From Nitratireductor alexandrii (GTDB lineage: Bacteria; Pseudomonadota; Alphaproteobacteria; Rhizobiales; Rhizobiaceae): a stretch of DNA of 64,000 nt. Below the pieces are notes generated by a model. The model was not told the origin of the DNA. It did no database searches and saw nothing but the letters and a program-made list of their open reading frames with translations. Positions 27,495-52,465 of the stretch are shown one piece after another. Each line of letters opens with the position of its first letter. The stretch's first letter is position 1. The DNA lies in assembly GCF_004000215.1 (NCBI RefSeq), contig NZ_RBVY01000010.1, positions 102,805-166,804 on the forward strand, given 5' to 3'. The translations under genes and the position numbers were made by a program.

Positions 27495-29972
27495 TCAGAG
27501 CGCCGGCGTGGTCGATTTGCCGGCGCTCTTGTCGCCGGTGTCTTCCTCGTCGATTGCCGAGCGTACCGACCCCGCGATCGCCTCCTTCTGCGCCGGGCTC
27601 AGTTCGCTTGCCTTTTCGCCGTCGGCAAGCCGCACGGTGACCTCGCGATGGGCGAAGCGCACGCCTTCCTTCTCGAACAGATCGCGGATCGCGGCATAGA
27701 CGACCTTGCGGGTGACGAACTGGTCGCCCGGCCGGGTCATGAACTTGACCCGCACGATCATCGCCGAATCCTCCATCTTGTAGACGCCCTGCGATTTCAG
27801 CGGTTGCAGGAAGAGCGGCCCGACCACCTCGTCCTCGAGCAATTGCTGGCCGAGCTTCTTGATCAGCTTGCGGACCTTTTCGACATCGGTGTCGTAGGTC
27901 AGCCGCAGCGGCAGCTTCATCATCACCCAGTCGCGGGAATAGTTGGTGAGCTGGTGGATCTCGCCGAACGGCACCGTGTGGACGGCACCGAGATGATGGC
28001 GCAGCTGGAAGGAGCGCATCGAGATCTTTTCCACCACGCCCTTCACATTGTCGATCTCGATATATTCGCCTTTGCGGAAGGCGTCGTCGATCAGGAAGAA
28101 GGCGCCGGAGAAAATATCGCGGATCAGGGTCTGGGCGCCGAAGCCGATCGCAATGCCGATCACGCCCGCACCGGCGAAGAGCGGGCCGATATCGACGCCG
28201 AGATTGGCCAGCACCACCATCGCGCCGATGGCGATGATGGCCGAGATCAGCACGTTGCGGAAGATCGGCAACAGGGTCGCGAGCCGCGACTGGCCCTTGC
28301 CGCCTTCGCTGTCGCCTTCGCCGGGATTGCTCGGCTGGTCGTCGAGCGTGCCGCCCTCCTCGACGATGCGGTGATCGATGTAGCCGTTGACGGTCCGGTA
28401 GGCCGAGGCCGCGACGATGACGGCAAGCAGGATGTCGAGGGCGGCGGCGAGCGGATGCCCGCCCTCGCGGCCGATATCGATGCCCCACAGCCGGGCGAGC
28501 TCGCCGGCAGAGACCACCAGGATCGTGGCCTGGACGACGTTTTCGAAAAACGGCTTGAAGGCGGGAAAATAGGGCCTTATCGCGGTCGAGGGCTCCGGCG
28601 TGGTGCGCATGACGGTCATCTCGCCCCCCTCCTCGATCATGTCGCGCATGTCTTCGCTCATCTCCGACATCATCTCGTCGGCGGCCTGCGCGCGCTCCCA
28701 GGCCTGCTTTTCGGCCTGCAGCTTCATCTCCTCGCGCCTGAGATGTGCGGCCGCGCGCCGTTCGTAGACGATCTCGATCAGATAGGAGGCGACGGCGTAG
28801 GCGAAGATCGCGGCCACGAAGACGATGATCGGGGCGAGGACGGGAATATAACCGCCGGGCAGGCCGAGCGTGAGGCGCACCGAACTGACGAACCAGGCCA
28901 GCGCCAGATATAGAAGCAGCAGCGGCACCGCCAGAAAGGCGATGGTTTTCAGCCAGGCCGGTTTCTGCGCGGGGTCGCCCTTGCCCAGGATGATGATGCG
29001 CAGATCCTGCTTGTGGACGACGGCGAGAAGAGCCAGCATGGCCGCGCAGATCAGCAGGCCGACGATGAAAGCGAGGCTGTGGGCGTCGGCGTTGACGATG
29101 TCCATCGAGGCGCCGGAAGGACCGTCTTTCAAGGCCAGGATCTGGATCCAGCGGCACAGCCCGATGATGAGGGCGCCGATCGCCAGCGCGACCGCCCAGT
29201 GCCTGAACACGCGCTGCGCCTGGGCGTCGTCGAGTTCGACCAGGCGGTGCGCCGGCGAGGTGGGGGCGAAGAAATTCCAGAACACGACGCCGCGCAGCAC
29301 GCGGTAGCCGATATAGGTCGACACGACGATGAAAATCGTCGCCCGGGTCGGTTCGTGGCCGGTGTCGAAGATCACCGCGACCAGGATCGCCGTGGCGAAC
29401 ATGATGCCGGCGCTCAAGAGCATCCAGCCCGCCCGCGCCAGCAGATAGGCGAGCTTTCCGGAGCGTTTCTGCTCGTTTTCGTCGTAGAGCGCGCGGAAAT
29501 GATCGCGTCCCCAGCGCGTCACCAGACGGAACATGTAATGACCGGCAATCAGGCCGCCGACCGCCGTGACCAGCGCGATGACCAGCCACCAGGCGGTGCC
29601 GTCCGGGCTCGCCGCCTTCAGCGATTTCGGCAGGTCGTCGAGGAAAACCATCGCGTTGGCGATCATGCGGCGCATGTTGGCGCGCGCCTCGAGCAGATTC
29701 TTGTTCGAAAACGCCATCGTCATCGGCGGGGCGGCGGCCTGCTTGTCGTCGCCGCCGGGCTGGACGACGATCACCGTGGAGCCGTCCTTGCGGGCCGCTT
29801 CCAGAAACGCTTCCAGGGCAGCGCCGTCCCGGGGTTGCGCCTGGGGCGCCTGTGCCAACGCCGCGCCGGCATGAAGCAGGGCTTGCAACACGAGGACGCT
29901 CAGGACAAACAGGGTCGGGCGCAAAAGCCGCAATTTTTGAACGATCGGCCCGAAAAGGGATTGGTTTTTCAT
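27495..29972 (-). CDS. Large MscS-family mechanosensitive channel
   Basis: 825 residues. Signal peptide (about 1-40), periplasmic region, some ten membrane segments, then the MscS core near 590-700 (GVIGIAIGFGAQTLIRDIFSGAFFLIDDAFRKGEYIEI) and cytoplasmic beta and C-terminal domains. A charged coiled-coil (RREEMKLQAEKQAWERAQAADEMMSEMSEDMRDM) interrupts the membrane part near 400-440. Such channels release solutes upon hypo-osmotic shock. ATG 29972 is chosen because it begins the signal peptide; an upstream ATG at 30050 would overlap the divergent phosphatase gene. Paralogous to the channel at 42562-44901. Confidence 0.92.
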   Translation of the reverse strand: MKNQSLFGPIVQKLRLLRPTLFVLSVLVLQALLHAGAALAQAPQAQPRDGAALEAFLEAARKDGSTVIVVQPGGDDKQAAAPPMTMAFSNKNLLEARANMRRMIANAMVFLDDLPKSLKAASPDGTAWWLVIALVTAVGGLIAGHYMFRLVTRWGRDHFRALYDENEQKRSGKLAYLLARAGWMLLSAGIMFATAILVAVIFDTGHEPTRATIFIVVSTYIGYRVLRGVVFWNFFAPTSPAHRLVELDDAQAQRVFRHWAVALAIGALIIGLCRWIQILALKDGPSGASMDIVNADAHSLAFIVGLLICAAMLALLAVVHKQDLRIIILGKGDPAQKPAWLKTIAFLAVPLLLLYLALAWFVSSVRLTLGLPGGYIPVLAPIIVFVAAIFAYAVASYLIEIVYERRAAAHLRREEMKLQAEKQAWERAQAADEMMSEMSEDMRDMIEEGGEMTVMRTTPEPSTAIRPYFPAFKPFFENVVQATILVVSAGELARLWGIDIGREGGHPLAAALDILLAVIVAASAYRTVNGYIDHRIVEEGGTLDDQPSNPGEGDSEGGKGQSRLATLLPIFRNVLISAIIAIGAMVVLANLGVDIGPLFAGAGVIGIAIGFGAQTLIRDIFSGAFFLIDDAFRKGEYIEIDNVKGVVEKISMRSFQLRHHLGAVHTVPFGEIHQLTNYSRDWVMMKLPLRLTYDTDVEKVRKLIKKLGQQLLEDEVVGPLFLQPLKSQGVYKMEDSAMIVRVKFMTRPGDQFVTRKVVYAAIRDLFEKEGVRFAHREVTVRLADGEKASELSPAQKEAIAGSVRSAIDEEDTGDKSAGKSTTPAL

Positions 29973-30042
29973 GAAATCTGCGCCGAAAATGCCAATCTTT
30001 TCGGATTTAATGCCACAAAACGGCGCCCAATCAGAGTAAATT

Positions 30043-30645
30043 ATGGTCAAAATCGCGTTTTACGCAATGCGTCACGGCGAGACGGCGTGGAATGCGCAAG
30101 GCCGTTTCCAGGGGCACAGCGATATCGCGCTTTCGCCCGCAGGCCGCGCGCAGGCCAGGGCGGGTGCTGCGGGTCTTCGGGCGATGCTGGCGAACGAGCC
30201 GCGATTGTCCGCGCCGGAACGCATCGTGACCTCGCCGCTCGCACGCGCCCGCGAGACGGCCGAGATCGTGCGCGACGCGCTCGGCCTGCCGGAGGCGGCG
30301 CTGTGCGTGGACGTGCGACTGCGCGAGGCGGGATTCGGGAACTGGGAGGGGCTGACGACGCTGGAGGTCAAGGCGCGCTTTCCCCAGGAGCGCCGGCGGC
30401 GCAAGGCCGAGCGCTGGTCCTACGCCCCGCCCGGCGGCGAAAGCTATGCCGATATCGACCGCGCGATGCGCGGGCTGATCGACGAGCTGGATCGGGCGCC
30501 CCTGTCGCTTTTGGTCACCCATGCCGGCAATCTGCGCATCCTGATGATGCGCGCGGCGGGCCGCGACCCGGCCGAGGCGCTGCGCGACCCGGTCGGCCAT
30601 GGCACGGTGCATTTTTTCGACGGGCGGCAAGCGCGGCCGGCGTGA
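30043..30645 (+). CDS. Histidine phosphatase family protein
   Basis: 200 residues of the phosphoglycerate mutase-like superfamily. Catalytic MRHGETAWN with nucleophile His11, conserved SPLARARETAEI, and second catalytic His160 in VTHAGN. Could be a phosphoglycerate mutase-like, alpha-ribazole phosphatase (CobC-like) or broad-range phosphatase; cobalamin use by metH nearby is suggestive but the 5 kb gap gives no operon link. Divergent from the MscS gene with 70 bases between starts. Confidence 0.85.
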   Translation: MVKIAFYAMRHGETAWNAQGRFQGHSDIALSPAGRAQARAGAAGLRAMLANEPRLSAPERIVTSPLARARETAEIVRDALGLPEAALCVDVRLREAGFGNWEGLTTLEVKARFPQERRRRKAERWSYAPPGGESYADIDRAMRGLIDELDRAPLSLLVTHAGNLRILMMRAAGRDPAEALRDPVGHGTVHFFDGRQARPA

Positions 30646-42561: not shown

Positions 42562-44901
42562 TCATGGCTCGTCGGGGGTCGGCTGTTGCTGGCGGGGCGG
42601 GTCGATCGCGTCCTGCGCGGCGCCGGTGACGGCTTCCTTTTCCTCCGCCGACAGGGGACGATCGGACAACACCTCCACCTTGACGTTGCGTTGGGCGAAG
42701 TTGATGCCGTTGGCCTCGAACGTGTCGCGCAGTTTCTGGTAGGCGTCCCGGCGGATCACCCATTGCGCGCCGGGTTTGGCCATGAATTTGACGCCGACGA
42801 CCATGTTGAACTCTTCCATGCGGCGCACACCCTGGGATTTCAACGGTTCGATCAAATAGTGGCCGTAATTTTCGTCGGCCTGGAGCTCGGCACCGACCTT
42901 CTTGACCAGTTTCTTGACCAGTCTGAGGTCGGTGTCGAAGGGAACCCTGAACTCCAGCTTCATGATCACCCAGTCGCGGCTGTAATTGGTCAGCGATTTC
43001 AGTTCGCCGAACGGAATCGTATGCACGGCGCCGCGATGGTGACGCACGCGCATCGAGCGCAGCGACATCGATTCGACCGTGCCGCGCAGGTCGCCGATCT
43101 CGACATATTCGCCGACCCGGAAAGCATCGTCGATCAGGAAGAAGATGCCCGACACGATGTCGCGCACCAGCGATTGCGCGCCGAAGCCGATCGCGACGCC
43201 GAGAATGCCGGCCCCGGCGATCAGCGGCGCGATGTTGACGCCGAGCGAGGAGAGCGCCGTCAGGCCGACGAGCGCGATCAGGGCGACCAGAAGAATGTTG
43301 CGCGTCAAGGGCAGGAGCGTGGCCATGCGCGCTTCGGGGCCCGGCGGCTCGCCGGGCGGCGGGGCGACGTAACCCGCCATGCGGCGGTCGATCGCGGTCT
43401 TGGCCCAGCCCCAGACCAGATCGGCGATCAGCGCGGCGGCGGCGATGTCGATGGCGATTTTGACCAGACGCCCGGCGAAGCGCGGCGAGTCCGACAAGGC
43501 GGCGATATTGGTGTTCCAGGCGGCCGCCAGCACCAGCAGCGCCAGGCCTGCCAGGGCAAACCGGGCGACACGGTGGATCAGCGGCCGATAGATGGCGTAG
43601 CGCTCGTCTTCGGCCTGGGCCGGGTCGCGCGCGTCCGAGGGGGCGTCTGCGACCGCGCCGTCGGCGGGTTCTTCCGGTCTCGCGTCGTCTGGCCCGGCGG
43701 CGTCGGCCTGCTGCGCGACGGGTGCGTCTTCTCTTGCGCTTTGCTCGGCGCGGTCGACGAAATGGTCGGCCATCACCCGGATCAGCCGCGCGGCCGGCAC
43801 GAACATGCCGAGGACCAGCACGGTCCACATCAATTCGTGGGCGTCGAAGACCCACAACAGATAGGCGAGGAAGACGACAACGCTGATCACCGTCGGCTGG
43901 ACACGCAGGCGGGCCGTTTCGAAACGCCGCGCGGCCCCTGCCGGCGGTGCGTGGTCGCGGGCCAGCCCGCGCGACAACGTCCAAACCATGGCGATCACCG
44001 CCGCCGTGGCGCCGGCGCCGAGTACGACGGCGACGGCGAGCGCGGCATTGACGGCCTGCGGCGAGCCCGACGGGCCCTGCGCCAGGAAGGCGAACGTGTC
44101 GGACAGCATCATCGCGCTGGCGAACACGACGGCCACCACCAGGTGCCAGCGATGGATGCGCCCGGCCATCGGTGTTTCCAGAGGCACCAGCCGCAACTGG
44201 GCGTTGCGCGGGGCGAGGATGAAGCGCGACAGCATGGCGAGCGCGCGGATGCCGATCACCGTCAACAGCACGCTGACGACCACCCGCTCCAAAAAGGCCG
44301 GCCAGCCGAAGCTCAAAAACGTGCCGATGCTGCCGAGCGCGAACAGCAGCAGGCCGCTTGCCTGGAGCAGCAGGCGGCCGCCCGCCCCGCGCAGGCGCTG
44401 GGCAAGGCTGTGCGGCGGTGTGTGTTCGATGCGCAGCAGAACCGGATGGAAATATTGCCAGAACAGCCATTCCAGTCCGCCGCCGATAAACAGGAAGACG
44501 ATCACATAGGTGAGGCTGCGCAGCGCCGCGCCGCGCTCGAGCTGCGCGCGCCAGGCCTCTGCGAGCACATCGGGAAGATAAGGAAAATTGGACCAGGCCT
44601 CGCCCAATTCGGCGATGCGCCGGCGGGCCGCCTTCAGCCGGTCCTCGATCTCGGCGCGCAGCGACCGGTTCGCCGTTTCCGGCTGCGGCAGATCGGCAAG
44701 GCGGGTCTTGAGCCATTCGACGACGCGCGGATCGCCGAGAATGCGCAGCAATTCCTGGACATCGTTGGCGGAGGGCTCTCCGACGGCCTCGTCCTGGGCC
44801 TCAGTCTGCGCGGCCGGCTGAGCGACCTGGCCGGCCGCCGGCGCCATGCAGGCGAACCACATCAGCAAGGCGGCGAGGGCACGAGCCGAGCGCATCATCA
44901 T
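42562..44901 (-). CDS. Large MscS-family mechanosensitive channel, coupled to a redox protein
   Basis: 779 residues. Signal peptide (about 1-25), periplasmic helical region, multiple membrane segments, an acidic Ala/Asp/Glu-rich cytoplasmic insertion (about 390-440), then the MscS core (GILGVAIGFGAQSLVRDIVSGIFFLIDDAFRVGEYVEI) and cytoplasmic domain. It is a paralogue of the channel at 27495-29972, with closely similar C-terminal halves. Three consecutive ATG codons (44901, 44898, 44895) open the gene, overlapping the stop of the ferredoxin-domain gene, which implies translational coupling. Confidence 0.92.
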   Translation of the reverse strand: MMMRSARALAALLMWFACMAPAAGQVAQPAAQTEAQDEAVGEPSANDVQELLRILGDPRVVEWLKTRLADLPQPETANRSLRAEIEDRLKAARRRIAELGEAWSNFPYLPDVLAEAWRAQLERGAALRSLTYVIVFLFIGGGLEWLFWQYFHPVLLRIEHTPPHSLAQRLRGAGGRLLLQASGLLLFALGSIGTFLSFGWPAFLERVVVSVLLTVIGIRALAMLSRFILAPRNAQLRLVPLETPMAGRIHRWHLVVAVVFASAMMLSDTFAFLAQGPSGSPQAVNAALAVAVVLGAGATAAVIAMVWTLSRGLARDHAPPAGAARRFETARLRVQPTVISVVVFLAYLLWVFDAHELMWTVLVLGMFVPAARLIRVMADHFVDRAEQSAREDAPVAQQADAAGPDDARPEEPADGAVADAPSDARDPAQAEDERYAIYRPLIHRVARFALAGLALLVLAAAWNTNIAALSDSPRFAGRLVKIAIDIAAAALIADLVWGWAKTAIDRRMAGYVAPPPGEPPGPEARMATLLPLTRNILLVALIALVGLTALSSLGVNIAPLIAGAGILGVAIGFGAQSLVRDIVSGIFFLIDDAFRVGEYVEIGDLRGTVESMSLRSMRVRHHRGAVHTIPFGELKSLTNYSRDWVIMKLEFRVPFDTDLRLVKKLVKKVGAELQADENYGHYLIEPLKSQGVRRMEEFNMVVGVKFMAKPGAQWVIRRDAYQKLRDTFEANGINFAQRNVKVEVLSDRPLSAEEKEAVTGAAQDAIDPPRQQQPTPDEP

Positions 44902-46016
44902 GCCGTGCTCGGCTCGCCGTGGCGCGGCCCGTCCGCCGCCTCGGCTTCGAGGTCATGCATGTCGCGCGGCCGCAGGAACGGCGACAATACCCGCTCGACC
45001 GTCATCTCGCCGGCCGGAGGCTTAAGCTGGCAGGCAAGCCGGACGTCCGGCGGCGCGGCCAGCCTCGCAAGGGTTTTTTCCTCCGCCTCTGTGCGCTCGG
45101 GCAGTTTTTCCGTCGTCGCAAGCACGCGCACGCGACATGTTCCGCAACGCCCGCGACCGCGGCACAGATTGGCCATCGGCGTATGGTTCAGCCGGGCGAT
45201 TTCGAGCAGGTTCAGGCTGGTGGAGCCGGTCATGACCGGCCCGCCGGCAAGGGTGATGCGCGCGCGACCGTGACTGCCGGCGACGCGGAACTGGCGGGCG
45301 GCGAAAACGGCGGCCAGCAGGATCAGATAGAGGATGAAGACGGTCCAGTTGATCCGCTTCAAAAGGGCCAGGATCTCGTCGAAGGGGCGGGTCAGGACCG
45401 GGGGATCGAGCGGCGGTATGGCGCCCGGGAACGCGGCCGGGTCGTCGACATAGGCGATCGCCTGGTTTCCGGCCTCCACGAAACCGAGCAGGCCGAGCAC
45501 CGGGATGGCGACGGCGAGCGGGTAGAGGAAGCCCCCGATGCGCGGCCACCAGGGCTGGATGCGCGCCCAGGTGTAGACGCCGACGCAGCCATGGACCCAC
45601 AAAAAGGCGAGAAGCAGCACCTGCCTGAGACCCTCCTGGGGCTGGTCGATCCAGAAATAGGGGATCAGCAGGGCGAAGCTCGGCACGATGCCGAAACTGG
45701 CGGCGACGACCGTGCCGACGACATGCGGGGTCAGCAGCGGCACGATGGCCAGGCTCGCCACGAGCTGGACGCTGTCGGAGGCGGACAGGCGAAGCGTGTT
45801 GCGCTGGTAGACCGCGACAAGGCCCAATGCCGCGTGCGCGATCATCGACCCGGCCAATATGGCGGTACCGAGCGGGTTCGACCACAGGCCCATGAGAACC
45901 GGCCTGGCCCGGTCCATAAGCGCGATCGAATGCAGTCCGAGCGCCACGTTGAGGAGATGGATCGTCACGAAGACGAACAAGATCAGGCCGCTGATGATCC
46001 TGATCCGCCGTGCCAT
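44898..46016 (-). CDS. Membrane five-histidine domain fused to 2Fe-2S ferredoxin domain
   Basis: 372 residues. N-terminal membrane module of about six helices carrying five histidines in or beside helices (His20, 29, 61, 98, 142), a seventh helix near 223-241, then a plant-type 2Fe-2S domain with Cys285, Cys291, Cys294 and Cys329 (CRGRGRCGTC...C). From memory this matches the 6TM-5H diheme plus ferredoxin input module of CyaC-type adenylate cyclases in rhizobia, a quinone/redox sensor related to succinate dehydrogenase anchors. Here no cyclase domain follows. The stop overlaps the start of an MscS channel gene. ATG 46016 is preceded by AAGGGGGG. Confidence 0.8.
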   Translation of the reverse strand: MARRIRIISGLILFVFVTIHLLNVALGLHSIALMDRARPVLMGLWSNPLGTAILAGSMIAHAALGLVAVYQRNTLRLSASDSVQLVASLAIVPLLTPHVVGTVVAASFGIVPSFALLIPYFWIDQPQEGLRQVLLLAFLWVHGCVGVYTWARIQPWWPRIGGFLYPLAVAIPVLGLLGFVEAGNQAIAYVDDPAAFPGAIPPLDPPVLTRPFDEILALLKRINWTVFILYLILLAAVFAARQFRVAGSHGRARITLAGGPVMTGSTSLNLLEIARLNHTPMANLCRGRGRCGTCRVRVLATTEKLPERTEAEEKTLARLAAPPDVRLACQLKPPAGEMTVERVLSPFLRPRDMHDLEAEAADGPRHGEPSTA

Positions 46017-48026: not shown

Positions 48027-49211
48027 TCAGTCCTTGACGAAGAGCTCGCGCGGCCGGACGCACAAGCACTCGGCCGGGCCGCCGTCGCGAATGAGGATGC
48101 TTTCGGTGATCTCGAGACCCCAGTCGCTCATCCACAGTCCGGGCATGAAGTGAAAGGTCATGCCGGCCTCGAGCACGGTCTCGTCCTCATGGCGGAAGGA
48201 GATCGTGCGCTCGCCCCAGTCGGGCGGATAGGAAAGCCCGATCGGATAGCCGCAGCGGCCCTCCTTCTTGATGCCGGCGCGTTCGAGCGACCCGAACAGG
48301 GCGCGGGCGACGTCGCCGGCCCGGTTGCCGGGCCGGGCCGCTTCCAGTCCCGCCTCCAACCCCTCGACCAGCGCCTTTTCGGCGTCCAGCATCTCCTGCG
48401 GCGGCTTGCCGAGGAAGACGGTACGGCAGAACGGCGCGTGATAGCGCCGATAACAGCCGGCGATCTCGAAAAAGGTCGCCTCGCCGGATGAAAAGGGCCG
48501 CCCGTCCCAGGTCAGGTGCGGGGCGGTGGCGTCGGCGCCGCTCGGCAGAAGCGGCACGATGGCGGCATAATCGCCCCAGGCTTCGCCGGTGCCGCGGATC
48601 GCGTCGGCGTAGATCTCGGCGACGAGTTCGTTCTTGGGAAGGCCGGGCTCGACGCGGGCGAGAATGCCGTCGACGATCTTTTCGGAGATCGAGGCGGCGC
48701 GGCGCATGAAGACGATCTCCTCCGGCGACTTGACCGCGCGCTGCCAGTTGACCAGCGCGGTGGCGTCGACAAAGGTCGCCTGCGGCAGGGTTTCGGTCAG
48801 CACGAGATGCGCCTTGGCGGAGTAATAATAATTCTCCATCTCGACGCCGATGCGCTTGCCGGCGTAACCGCGCGCGCGCAGCCGCTCGGCCAGGTCCTCC
48901 ATCGGGTGATAGCGCGTCGACTGGATGTAGCGGTCGGCATAGCCGGCCACGTCGCTGTCTGGCATCCATACCGTGCGCAGGGCGCCGTTGGCGTCCTGGG
49001 TGCGGCCCCACCACAGCGGATCGGCGTCGTGGAACACGACCACGCCCTGATGCACGTAAAACGACCAGCCCTCATAGCCGGTCAGCCAGGCCATGTTGGA
49101 CGGATCCTCGACGAAAAGCACGTCGATATCGGCCTTGGCCATCGCCGCGCGCACCTTGGTCAGGCGGCGCTGATATTCGGTCTGCGTGAACGGTAAGTCG
49201 GCGGCCGGCAT
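48027..49211 (-). CDS. doeA: Ectoine hydrolase (EutD/DoeA)
   Basis: 394 residues, M24 creatinase-like fold. Opens the ectoine ring to give N-acetyl-L-2,4-diaminobutyrate. The usual M24 metal-ligand Asp residues are replaced (Glu249 and the GCYRRYHAP segment 252-260), as in metal-free ring hydrolases of this kind. Family signatures RCGYPIGLSYPPDWGERTISFR and HFMPGLWMSDWGLEITES point to EutD/DoeA. GGGAGGAACC precedes ATG 49211. First gene of the minus-strand operon, divergent from ehuB with two candidate operators between them. Confidence 0.9.
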   Translation of the reverse strand: MPAADLPFTQTEYQRRLTKVRAAMAKADIDVLFVEDPSNMAWLTGYEGWSFYVHQGVVVFHDADPLWWGRTQDANGALRTVWMPDSDVAGYADRYIQSTRYHPMEDLAERLRARGYAGKRIGVEMENYYYSAKAHLVLTETLPQATFVDATALVNWQRAVKSPEEIVFMRRAASISEKIVDGILARVEPGLPKNELVAEIYADAIRGTGEAWGDYAAIVPLLPSGADATAPHLTWDGRPFSSGEATFFEIAGCYRRYHAPFCRTVFLGKPPQEMLDAEKALVEGLEAGLEAARPGNRAGDVARALFGSLERAGIKKEGRCGYPIGLSYPPDWGERTISFRHEDETVLEAGMTFHFMPGLWMSDWGLEITESILIRDGGPAECLCVRPRELFVKD

Positions 49212-49262
49212 GGTTCCTCCCTCGGCGACGGTTGCGCGGCGTCGCCCGATGTCGGACGATAA

Positions 49263-49270
49263 TGTGTACA
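49263..49270. promoter_or_regulatory. Candidate GntR operator, doeA side
   Basis: TGTGTACA, the reverse complement of the TGTACACA core found on the ehuB side, 52-59 bases before the doeA start. Assigned by recurrence and by GntR/FCD preference for short A/T-flanked GTAC-type palindromes. Confidence 0.4.
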
Positions 49271-49328
49271 TCTATTTGCGCGCAAGCAAAAAAACATACT
49301 CAAGACTATCGATAAGAGCAGAAATCCG

Positions 49329-49366
49329 TTGACATCCTGCGTTTGGGCGTGATGTTGTACACAACA
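49329..49366 (+). promoter_or_regulatory. ehuB promoter with overlapping operator
   Basis: TTGACA at 49329-49334 is a perfect -35 box. About 18 bases downstream, where a -10 box is expected, lies the palindrome TGTTGT-AC-ACAACA (49353-49366), a weak -10 itself. A repressor bound there would block RNA polymerase. The site is 39 bases from the ehuB ATG and shares TGTACACA with the site at 49263-49270. Suggested ligand: the GntR protein encoded at 46094-46864. Confidence 0.55.
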
Positions 49367-49404
49367 AAAGCATAATGGGTGAACCTCACAATGGGAGTAT
49401 CGTT

Positions 49405-50250
49405 ATGAGACGTGCAATCCTGAAAGGCGCCGTCGCGCTCGGTATCGCTGCGCTGACGGTCGGTTCGTGGGCCGGATCGGCCTCGGCGGGCGACCTGCTC
49501 GACAAGATCAAGGCCGGCGAGACGATCCGTGTCGGCTTCTCGAACGAAGTTCCCTGGGCGTATCCGGGCGACAACAACGAGCCGCTCGGTTTCGTCAACG
49601 CGATCACCATCGACATTCTGAAGAAGATGGGCACGACCAAGATCGAGCCGGTGGTGACCGAATGGGGCTCTCTGATCCCGGGCCTTCAGGCCGGCCGTTT
49701 CGACATCATCACCGGCGGCATGTATATTTTGCCGGAACGCTGCCGCAACGCGCTGTTCACCGAGCCGCTGGGCACGTTCGCCGACGCGCTGCTCGTGCCG
49801 ACGGGCAATCCCGAGGACCTGCATTCCTTCGACGACGTGCGCGACAAGGAGCTGATGTTCGTCACCGGCGCCGGCTACAACACCGTCAAGAACGCCAAGA
49901 ATGTCGGCATCGCCGACGACAAGATCATGCAGGTCGCCGGCCCGGCCGAGATCCTGCAGGCGGTCAAGGCCGGACGCGCGGCGGCCGGCAGCGGCACCTA
50001 CTTCACCATGAAGGAATTCGCCGACAAGGATGAGGCGGTCGAACTCGCCGACCCGTTCACCCCGCCGGTCATCGACGGCTATCCCGGTCTCGCCTTCCTG
50101 CCCAACCAGCAGGAAGAGGTCGACGCCTTCAATGCCGCGCTCAAGGAGTATGTCGGGTCCGAGGAGATGATGAAGTCGGTCGAGCCCTACGGCTATTCCA
50201 AGGCCAATCTGCCCGACGGAACCCCGACGGCGGAGCTCTGCAAGGGCTGA
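49405..50250 (+). CDS. ehuB: Ectoine/hydroxyectoine-binding protein EhuB
   Basis: 281 residues: signal peptide (about 1-29) and family 3 periplasmic binding domain (IRVGFSNEVPWAYPG.., RFDIITGGMYILPERC). Residues Glu48, Trp51, Trp87, Tyr107 and Arg112 fall at one constant offset (27) from the ligand residues I recall for Sinorhizobium EhuB (Glu21, Phe24, Tyr60, Phe80, Arg85), so the binding box is kept but all three aromatics differ. ATG 49405 preceded by GGGAG. Captures ectoine in the periplasm for EhuCDA. Confidence 0.88.
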   Translation: MRRAILKGAVALGIAALTVGSWAGSASAGDLLDKIKAGETIRVGFSNEVPWAYPGDNNEPLGFVNAITIDILKKMGTTKIEPVVTEWGSLIPGLQAGRFDIITGGMYILPERCRNALFTEPLGTFADALLVPTGNPEDLHSFDDVRDKELMFVTGAGYNTVKNAKNVGIADDKIMQVAGPAEILQAVKAGRAAAGSGTYFTMKEFADKDEAVELADPFTPPVIDGYPGLAFLPNQQEEVDAFNAALKEYVGSEEMMKSVEPYGYSKANLPDGTPTAELCKG

Positions 50251-50326
50251 GACGGCGCCGCGTTTGGCGTGTCGTATCCGATGTGAACCCGGGGCGTCTT
50301 CCGGCCGGTGAGCCGGAGGACGCGGG

Positions 50327-51013
50327 ATGGGAATCGGCTTCATGAACGAGTTCGCCCTCGGTTTCAGCGTCGCTGCCCTGGTCAAGGGCGCGGCGGTCAC
50401 GCTCCTCGTCACCACCGGCGCCTCGATCGTGGCCATCGTGCTCGGACTGGTGGTCGGTCTGGTCCGCGTGTCGACGCTGGCGCCGCTGCGCTGGCTGGCC
50501 GTGGCCTATATCGAGTTCTTCCGCGGCACCTCGATGCTGGTGCAGCTCTACTGGTGGTTCTTCGTGCTGCCGATTTTCGGTCTGTCGCTGTCGCCGTGGA
50601 CCGTGGCCATCGTCGGTGTCGGCATGAACGTTTCGGGATACGGGGCGGAGCTGGTGCGCGCGGCGATCCAAAGCGTCGATCGCGGCCAGTACGAGGCCTC
50701 GACAGCGCTCAACTTTCCGCGGCTGACCATGATGCGGCGCATCATCGTGCCGCAGGCGATCCGCGGCATGCTGCCGCCCTGGGGCAATCTCCTGATCGAA
50801 TTGCTGAAGGGCACGTCGCTGATCTTTTTCATCACCATTACCGAACTGACCACCGCCTCGAAGCTCGCCGCCGATGCCACCGGCAATTATCTCTTGTTCT
50901 TCGCCGTCGCGCTGTTCGGGTATTACCTGATCGCCCGCGCCATCATCACGCCGCTGGTGCGCTGGCTGGAGCGCCGCTTCTCGCGCGGCTTCATCCGGGA
51001 GGTGGTGGCATGA
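50327..51013 (+). CDS. ehuC: Ectoine ABC transporter permease EhuC
   Basis: 228 residues, polar amino-acid type permease with about five membrane segments. Conserved EFFRGTSMLVQLYWWFFVLP and the ATPase-docking loop YEASTALNFPRLTMMRRIIVPQAIRGMLPPWGN. GGAGG precedes ATG 50327. The 76-base gap after ehuB is the only sizeable spacer in the transporter operon. Overlaps ehuD by 4 bases. Confidence 0.88.
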   Translation: MGIGFMNEFALGFSVAALVKGAAVTLLVTTGASIVAIVLGLVVGLVRVSTLAPLRWLAVAYIEFFRGTSMLVQLYWWFFVLPIFGLSLSPWTVAIVGVGMNVSGYGAELVRAAIQSVDRGQYEASTALNFPRLTMMRRIIVPQAIRGMLPPWGNLLIELLKGTSLIFFITITELTTASKLAADATGNYLLFFAVALFGYYLIARAIITPLVRWLERRFSRGFIREVVA

Positions 51014-51678
51014 GCATCTGGGACTGGGAGTATGTCTGGGAGGCGATGCCCTATCTCCTTCAGGGCGCGATCGTCACCGTGCAGGCGACGTTTCTGGGCT
51101 TCGCGATCGCGCTGGTGCTGGGCCTGGTCTTCGCGCTGATCCGGCAATCGCAAAACCGGATCGTTTCCGGCACGATGGCCGAGATCGTCGAGTTCATCCG
51201 CTCGACGCCGCTGCTTTTGCAGATCTTCTTCGTCTATTTCGTCGGTCCGCAATTCGGTATCGTCATTCCGGCCTGGACGGCCGGCATCGGCATGTTGGGC
51301 ATCCATTACGCCGCCTATTGCTCGGAGTGCTACCGGGCCGGCATCGAGAATGTCGACGGCGGCCAGTGGGAGGCCTGCACCGCGCTCAACCTGTCGACGG
51401 CGCGGGCCTGGCGGGTGATCATCCTGCCGCAGGCGATCCCGCCGATCGTGCCCAGCCTCGGCAATTATTTCATCGGCATGTTCAAGGATACGCCGATCTT
51501 GGCGGCGATCGCGATCCTGGAAATGCTGCAGCGCGCCAAGAATTTCGGCGCCGAGAACTATCGCTATATCGAGGCGATCACCATGGCGGGCGCGCTTTAT
51601 CTGCTGTTCAGCCTCGTCGCGTCGGTGATCGTCCAGATGATCAGCCTGTGGCTCAACCGCCGCTACCATCTGCAGTAG
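51010..51678 (+). CDS. ehuD: Ectoine ABC transporter permease EhuD
   Basis: 222 residues, second polar amino-acid type permease. Motifs EFIRSTPLLLQIFFVYFVGPQFG and the docking loop WEACTALNLSTARAWRVIILPQAIPPIVPSLGNYFIGMFKDTP. Forms the membrane channel with EhuC. Coupled to ehuC by an ATGA overlap. Confidence 0.88.
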   Translation: MSIWDWEYVWEAMPYLLQGAIVTVQATFLGFAIALVLGLVFALIRQSQNRIVSGTMAEIVEFIRSTPLLLQIFFVYFVGPQFGIVIPAWTAGIGMLGIHYAAYCSECYRAGIENVDGGQWEACTALNLSTARAWRVIILPQAIPPIVPSLGNYFIGMFKDTPILAAIAILEMLQRAKNFGAENYRYIEAITMAGALYLLFSLVASVIVQMISLWLNRRYHLQ

Positions 51679-51688
51679 GAGCCTCGCC

Positions 51689-52465
51689 ATGAGCGATCCG
51701 ATGGTCCGTTTCGAAAACGTCACCAAGCGCTACGGGGCGCTGACCGTGCTCGACCAGCTCAATCTCGACATCGAGCGCAACGAGAAAGTGTCGATCATCG
51801 GGCCGTCGGGTTCCGGCAAGACGACGGTGCTTAGAATGCTGATGACGCTCGAGCGCATCAATGATGGCGTGATCTGGGTCGACGGCGAGCCGCTGACCCA
51901 TATGGACAGGAACGGCACGCTGGTGAAGGCCAGCGAGCGTCATTTGCGGCGCGTGCGCGGCAAGATCGGCATGGTGTTCCAGCACTTCAACCTGTTTCCG
52001 CACATGACCGCGCTGCAGAACTGCATGGAGGCGCCGGTGTCAGTCCTCGGCCTGCCCAGGGACGAGGCCGAGAGCCGCGCGGCCGAACTGCTCGACATGG
52101 TCGGCCTCGCCGACAAGAAAGGGCATTTCCCGATCCAGATGTCGGGCGGCCAGAAGCAGCGCGTGGCGATCGCCCGGGCGCTGGCGATGCGGCCGAAGGT
52201 GATGCTGTTCGACGAGGTGACCTCCGCGCTCGATCCAGAGCTTGTCGGCGAGGTGCTCAACGTCATCCGGCAACTGGGCGCCGAGCACGACCTCACCATG
52301 CTGATGGTCACCCACCAGATGGGTTTTGCCCGTGAATTCTCCGACCGGGTCTGCTTCTTCTACGGCGGCAAGATCGCCGAGCAGGGACCGCCCGACAAGC
52401 TGTTCAACGACCCCGACAGCGACCGCACGCGCCAGTTCCTGAGCGCCGTGCTGGAGGCGGGGTAG
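51689..52465 (+). CDS. ehuA: Ectoine ABC transporter ATP-binding protein EhuA
   Basis: 258 residues with Walker A GPSGSGKTT (38-46), Q-loop FQHFNLFPHMTALQN, signature MSGGQKQRVAIARALAM, Walker B VMLFDEVTSALDPE and switch His in MVTHQMGFA. Glutamine-transporter-type ATPase; a short insertion (EPLTHMDRNGTLVKASERHLRRVR) before the Q-loop is, from memory, usual in EhuA. AGGAG precedes the ATG. Confidence 0.9.
   Translation: MSDPMVRFENVTKRYGALTVLDQLNLDIERNEKVSIIGPSGSGKTTVLRMLMTLERINDGVIWVDGEPLTHMDRNGTLVKASERHLRRVRGKIGMVFQHFNLFPHMTALQNCMEAPVSVLGLPRDEAESRAAELLDMVGLADKKGHFPIQMSGGQKQRVAIARALAMRPKVMLFDEVTSALDPELVGEVLNVIRQLGAEHDLTMLMVTHQMGFAREFSDRVCFFYGGKIAEQGPPDKLFNDPDSDRTRQFLSAVLEAG

Follow-up and report, generated by a model that had tools for sequence, protein, structure and literature searches.

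A cyclase-free relative of the CyaC redox module is consistently paired with a large MscS-type channel in proteobacteria

Introduction

In most accounts, the mechanosensitive channels of bacteria are valves that respond to membrane tension, and we know of no redox partner for YbiO, whose solved structures are the best matches to the channel treated here. On the redox side, the closest described system is the adenylate cyclase CyaC of Sinorhizobium meliloti and its kin. For CyaC, PMC10463352 describes two haems b, a response to ubiquinone and a membrane fold like that of subunit C of quinol:fumarate reductase (QFR); quinones oxidise or reduce the haem and thereby alter the cyclase activity, the enzyme being activated after oxidation by quinones, and CyaC itself forms a complex with regulators. 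For ion efflux, PMC2920069 describes KefF, a quinone-reductase-like ancillary subunit that activates the K+ efflux system KefC. In the present work, two overlapping genes were analysed on the minus strand of a 64,000-nucleotide stretch of the Nitratireductor alexandrii genome (contig NZ_RBVY01000010.1, positions 102,805 to 166,804; the whole stretch is called the window). One codes for a stand-alone relative of the CyaC input module, named the redox protein below, and the other for a large channel of the MscS superfamily.

The redox protein has the same membrane and 2Fe-2S module as CyaC, including its four histidines and four cysteines. Unlike CyaC, it has no class III adenylate cyclase, belongs to a separate sister clade and always lies beside an MscS gene, and it carries glycine at residue 292, where the fused proteins have serine. 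It resembles QFR subunit C in the fold of residues 1-207 and differs from it by a covalently attached C-terminal ferredoxin domain. The channel agrees with YbiO in its MscS core domains, its size and the 11-helix layout of its model, yet it lies under the YbiO equivalog cut-off and belongs to a clade (or clades) of its own, tied to the redox gene. The nearest parallel is KefF-KefC, in which an ion efflux system has a redox protein as its ancillary subunit. This is analogy and not kinship: KefF is a soluble flavin-type protein, KefC is an exchanger with a KTN domain, and no homology exists with the proteins studied here. A KefF-type flavin quinone-reductase-like fold was not found in the redox protein, in which only Fer2 was detected and whose model matches QFR-C and ferredoxins.

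It is considered probable (roughly 0.6) that the pair forms one functional unit, in which one clade of large MscS channels has a quinone-responsive di-haem b/2Fe-2S membrane protein as its dedicated regulator. At the level of sequence, the pair is marked by its domains, its conserved histidines and cysteines, its overlapping genes and an exclusive and old pairing; beyond these, we infer the binding of haem, the response to quinone, a complex with the channel and its gating. This would give a new output to a sensor module already known. To our knowledge the pair has not been described, and no description was found in the open-licence literature, which is a weak negative.

Results and discussion

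The redox gene (44898..46016, minus strand) is an open reading frame of 372 amino acids. Its first part (45420..46016) codes for a six-helix membrane region of di-haem-b type, with H20, H61, H98 and H142 as candidates for the axial ligation of two haems b, and is followed by a C-terminal 2Fe-2S ferredoxin domain (44985..45270) with C285, C291, C294 and C329. The sole Pfam domain was Fer2 at residues 269-333 (33.6 bits, cut-off 21), and the Pfam search revealed no cyclase domain (PF00211). The channel gene (42562..44901, same strand; 779 amino acids) has an intact MscS core. MS_channel_2nd (PF00924) reached 64.2 bits (cut-off 20.2) and MS_channel_1st (PF21088) 36.8 bits (cut-off 23.1), so that pore helices and beta domain are both present; MS_channel_3rd (PF21082), with 20.1 bits, was slightly below its cut-off of 21. 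The stop codon of the redox gene and the start codon of the channel gene share the 4-nucleotide sequence ATGA (44898..44901, minus strand). A first-pass annotation of the window, made from its sequence, had reported this overlap, a 2Fe-2S domain and the lack of a cyclase in the redox gene, and was right in each respect, the coordinates of the pair included. The closest named record was that of Nitratireductor arenosus (94% identity). A promoter scan found none, a result that is uninformative.

A scan of named genomes by one motif, CxGRGRCGTC, yielded 79 loci. A redox match was present in 76 of them and was stand-alone in 75, and in all of these 75 loci an MscS gene followed directly downstream, in the same order and on the same strand. 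The open frame of the channel overlapped the redox stop codon in 74 of the 75, with a 4-nucleotide NTGA overlap in 61; one pair locus, L166, ends at a contig end. The 76th redox locus (L168, Methylobacterium) was a cyclase-fused frame of 624 amino acids, and the other three loci (L167, L169 and L170) gave a weak match in the ferredoxin part only. Since only 7 matches to MscS domains were found in the 4.87 Mb genome of the window, the same neighbour in 75 of 75 loci is beyond chance. The first-pass annotation had proposed a CyaC-type input module without cyclase coupled to an MscS channel, and had allowed that the pairing might not be conserved in relatives; the opposite was found, without exception among the named-genome loci, which supports the proposal.

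The homology searches of the family, class, phylum and Rhodobacteraceae did not use the motif. The redox protein was searched in 61 relatives first and then in 394 genomes of the family, where the matches were of two sizes: frames of about 376-440 amino acids, and others mostly of 550-700. Among the family matches listed, an MscS frame lay directly downstream, on the same strand, of all 26 stand-alone frames; the long frames examined were without MscS in 7 of 7 cases, their C-terminal part being a cyclase. This family set (26 loci) and the named-genome set (75 loci) overlap, and their counts are not additive.

In a tree of 118 sequences, 71 stand-alone proteins were separated from 47 cyclase-fused ones by a single branch (Shimodaira-Hasegawa-like approximate likelihood ratio support of 100). 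The stand-alone alignment (A3) comprised 70 of the 75 loci and the window; L131, L137, L155, L164 and L166, which are fragments or have an insertion, were left out. The stand-alone clade consisted of two subclades of 49 and 22 sequences, and the channels split into two types that match them. For type 1, co-occurrence was evaluated in both directions. The type-1 redox gene was detected in 23 of the 394 family genomes and a full-length type-1 channel in the same 23 (at least 682 bits, the next MscS scoring 319), and neither partner occurred alone, all among the matches listed. The two-way test was limited to type 1 because type-2 channels score like unpaired ones against the channel of the window.

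In 228 genomes of Rhodobacteraceae the module was found in 30 and was stand-alone in 2, and the same 2 hold the paired channel type directly downstream (at least 765 bits, next 311). The class search (385 genomes) confirmed three stand-alone genes, all with MscS beside them, and the phylum search (299 genomes) gave 34 genomes with matches, 2 of them stand-alone (G000 and G571, both counted before). A fused frame of 876 amino acids was seen in G783. The class search also returned five short frames without MscS (G496, G704, G765, G634 and G648). For L203 and L205 the cyclase domain was located in a neighbouring frame, and for L207 in the same frame, which is cut off where the contig stops. L204 and L206, both at contig ends, gave no cyclase match by BLAST, although on inspection by eye L204 looks like the beginning of a cyclase; these two were the only possible exceptions to the pairing noticed. 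L203 and L205 are CyaC-type cyclase genes split between reading frames, by sequencing error or decay.

Judged by their record titles, the pair loci belong to Rhizobiales, Rhodobacterales, Geminicoccaceae, betaproteobacteria (e.g. Burkholderiales) and gammaproteobacteria (Chromatiales, Granulosicoccaceae). Because most loci are from Alphaproteobacteria, they are not independent, and the two genes could in principle have travelled together by descent or transfer without any functional contact. Such plain linkage is very improbable. The surroundings vary, with no third gene family in more than 7 of the 75 loci (those 7 being one group of relatives), while the pair is intact across deep branches and in the beta- and gammaproteobacterial records as well, and the type-1 partners were never alone among the matches listed. 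Neutral linkage is thus disfavoured by the two-way co-occurrence, by the varied surroundings and by the control loci described next. The lack of any widely common third gene also indicates that the unit consists of two genes. Two records, L100 (Blastopirellula) and L133 (Bordetella parapertussis), bear metagenome-bin titles in conflict with their tree position among alpha- and betaproteobacterial kin, and these misfits are likely to be binning or naming errors.

As controls, 78 cyclase-fused loci were inspected, some of them from one genome and most with flanks of 1.5 kb. MscS was absent from the flanks of all 78 and the cyclase was present in 77, the remaining one (L188) being at a contig end. 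Conversely, the redox protein was found beside none of 35 unpaired MscS frames (flanks of 1.5 kb), and a CyaC-type query detected no cyclase domain in any of the 75 pair loci. The genome of the window contains four class III cyclase domains, none of them on the contig that carries the pair (they lie on C1, C38, C36 and C1). It has no second copy of the module, the other match being NqrF (494 bits, cut-off 295). The first-pass annotation had raised the possibility that a separate cyclase gene is the real partner, which these results do not bear out. A broader form of the same idea is that the redox protein signals elsewhere, to a separate cyclase or a transcription factor, and that the channel is merely co-expressed in one stress response. 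The four cyclase domains elsewhere in the genome would suit it, as would the complex of CyaC with regulators (PMC10463352). It is nevertheless quite unlikely, given that the partner belongs to one MscS clade only, in a fixed and overlapping gene order, and that no regulator or cyclase is common to the pair loci.

The structural model of the redox protein (alignment of 71 rows) had a mean predicted local distance difference test score (pLDDT) of 92.7 and displayed six long helices and one short helix, followed by a ferredoxin-like C-terminal part. Residues 1-207 share the fold of the di-haem fumarate reductase subunit C of Wolinella (Z 13.9, root-mean-square deviation 3.5-4.0, 18% identity); the QFR-C structures matched were 1qlb_C, 2bs3_C and 2bs4_C (Z 13.9) and 5xmj_C (Z 13.6). 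A Z of 13.9 is in the range where the tool warns of generic helical-bundle matches, and the best helical matches are still di-haem QFRs. With the membrane part alone, Foldseek gave a weak match to 2bs4_C (E 0.074). In the structure search, residues 250-348 resembled [2Fe-2S] ferredoxins. Loops rich in lysine and arginine lie on the ferredoxin-domain side of the membrane part and acidic loops on the opposite side, which fits a cytoplasmic ferredoxin domain, close to the cytoplasmic part of MscS.

H20, H61, H98 and H142, as well as C285, C291, C294 and C329, were invariant in all 71 stand-alone proteins and in all 47 cyclase-fused relatives aligned. A weak profile match (E 0.11) aligned H20, H61 and H98 with histidines of the Desulfovibrio gigas QFR subunit C, and the four histidines are the putative haem ligands. 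The six helices and five histidines noted in the first-pass annotation are present (H20, H29, H61, H98 and H142), but only four of the histidines are conserved, H29 being kept in 18 of 71 stand-alone proteins. Residue 292, between the cluster cysteines, was glycine in 71 of 71 stand-alone and serine in 47 of 47 cyclase-fused proteins, and all 20 rows of a homology-found alignment (A1) have glycine too. The residue at this position can be taken to mark the type of output and might tune the cluster potential.

These are the domains of an electron carrier, and the coupling could accordingly run in reverse: the redox protein would be an electron-transfer enzyme linking the quinone pool to an acceptor in the cytoplasm, with the channel at its service, either by ion or charge balance or by letting tension control the electron transfer. 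The exclusive pairing is compatible with either direction. We regard this explanation as rather unlikely. No acceptor or reductase was found as a common third gene, and genes for the flavoprotein or iron-sulphur subunits of succinate/fumarate:quinone reductases were not common to the 75 pair loci. Moreover, in the cyclase-fused sister clade this module provides the input for a signalling output.

The channel begins with a signal-like stretch and has about 11 predicted membrane helices (model pLDDT 80.7). The best solved-structure matches were to YbiO (9go3 and 7a46, E about 1e-36), and the score against the YbiO equivalog NF008542 was 169.3 bits, under the cut-off of 596. R693, R694, E697, F698 and N699 occurred in at least 95% of 50 type-1 paired channels and in at most 3% of 35 unpaired ones. 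The RRMEEFN stretch (residues 693-699; 42790..42825, minus strand), in the cytoplasmic C-terminal part, is therefore a lead for a candidate contact site with the redox protein. The channel alignment (A4) contained 60 loci and the window, with 11 further loci of unsure start left out. In a quick channel tree the paired channels were not a single clade (3 changes); a tree holding them together was 19.2 log units better and was not rejected (approximately unbiased test, p-AU 0.84). This value is compatible with a single origin of the paired channels, which the free quick tree does not recover. Two of the 12 rows labelled unpaired in this tree are mislabelled: L004 is the channel of the window itself in a truncated locus, and L240_127, with a branch length of 10, is probably no MscS. 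Type-2 channels are shorter (frames of about 620-790 amino acids) and accompany the second redox clade, betaproteobacterial records included. The type-2 loci are L127, L130, L133, L139, L142-L147, L149-L154, L156, L158, L159 and L161-L163.

For a regulated channel, the following mechanism may be proposed. Quinone or quinol would exchange electrons with two haems b, whose ligands would be H20, H61, H98 and H142; from the haems the electrons would pass, as in CyaC, to the 2Fe-2S domain on the cytoplasmic side. The redox state would then alter the contact of the 2Fe-2S domain, or of the helices, with the channel, shifting the tension at which MscS opens. The output, a cyclase in cis in CyaC, would here be a channel in trans. 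In its most specific form, a di-haem b/2Fe-2S subunit in direct contact with a heptameric MscS reads the quinone pool and sets its opening tension in alpha-, beta- and gammaproteobacteria; to this form slightly less than even odds are given. That the oxidised form favours opening is a guess by analogy, only a little better than a coin toss.

Several points weigh against the regulatory reading. The motif used for the named-genome scan favours the stand-alone clade. Only three sites separate stand-alone from cyclase-fused redox proteins and the pair-specific channel residues common to both types are few (11), so that they define no contact surface. No natural fusion of redox protein and channel was present among the frames of the 79 loci. 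Between the two partners, pairwise distances are correlated (r 0.86, 60 loci; 0 of 2000 permutations as high), but shared ancestry would produce this for any pair of linked genes. Finally, four class III cyclase domains elsewhere in the genome make it conceivable that the redox protein acts on a cyclase in trans.

The data suggest that, in many proteobacteria, this pressure valve may be under respiratory control. If this is true, a conserved and exclusive partner with respiratory cofactors would allow the energy state of the cell to set the valve, the CyaC sensor would be a module with a swappable output, from cyclic AMP to ion flux, and respiration and turgor would be joined in one membrane machine. 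The pair also offers a direct two-gene experimental system for the question, otherwise hard to address, of why bacteria retain numerous large paralogues of MscS whose role is unclear.

In the window, the pair adjoins ectoine genes (48027..52465). They include doeA (TIGR02993, 619.7 bits, cut-off 613), ehuB, ehuC, ehuD and ehuA, each over its NCBIfam cut-off, an M20 deacetylase-like gene and a GntR regulator. Ectoine being an osmolyte, the context of the pair in the window is osmotic. A general link to ectoine was rejected: in a search of 101 pair loci, some of which are the same genome twice, doeA and ehuB were beside the pair in one other genome only (G002, same genus).

A second large MscS gene of the window (27495..30059, 854 amino acids) has no redox partner and shares, over its C-terminal part, 41% identity with the paired channel. 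In Mesorhizobium sp. L-8-3 (L093, the same as L064; 3599-9395), the order is MscS, redox gene, MscS on one strand, the extra large MscS frame ending just upstream of the redox gene.

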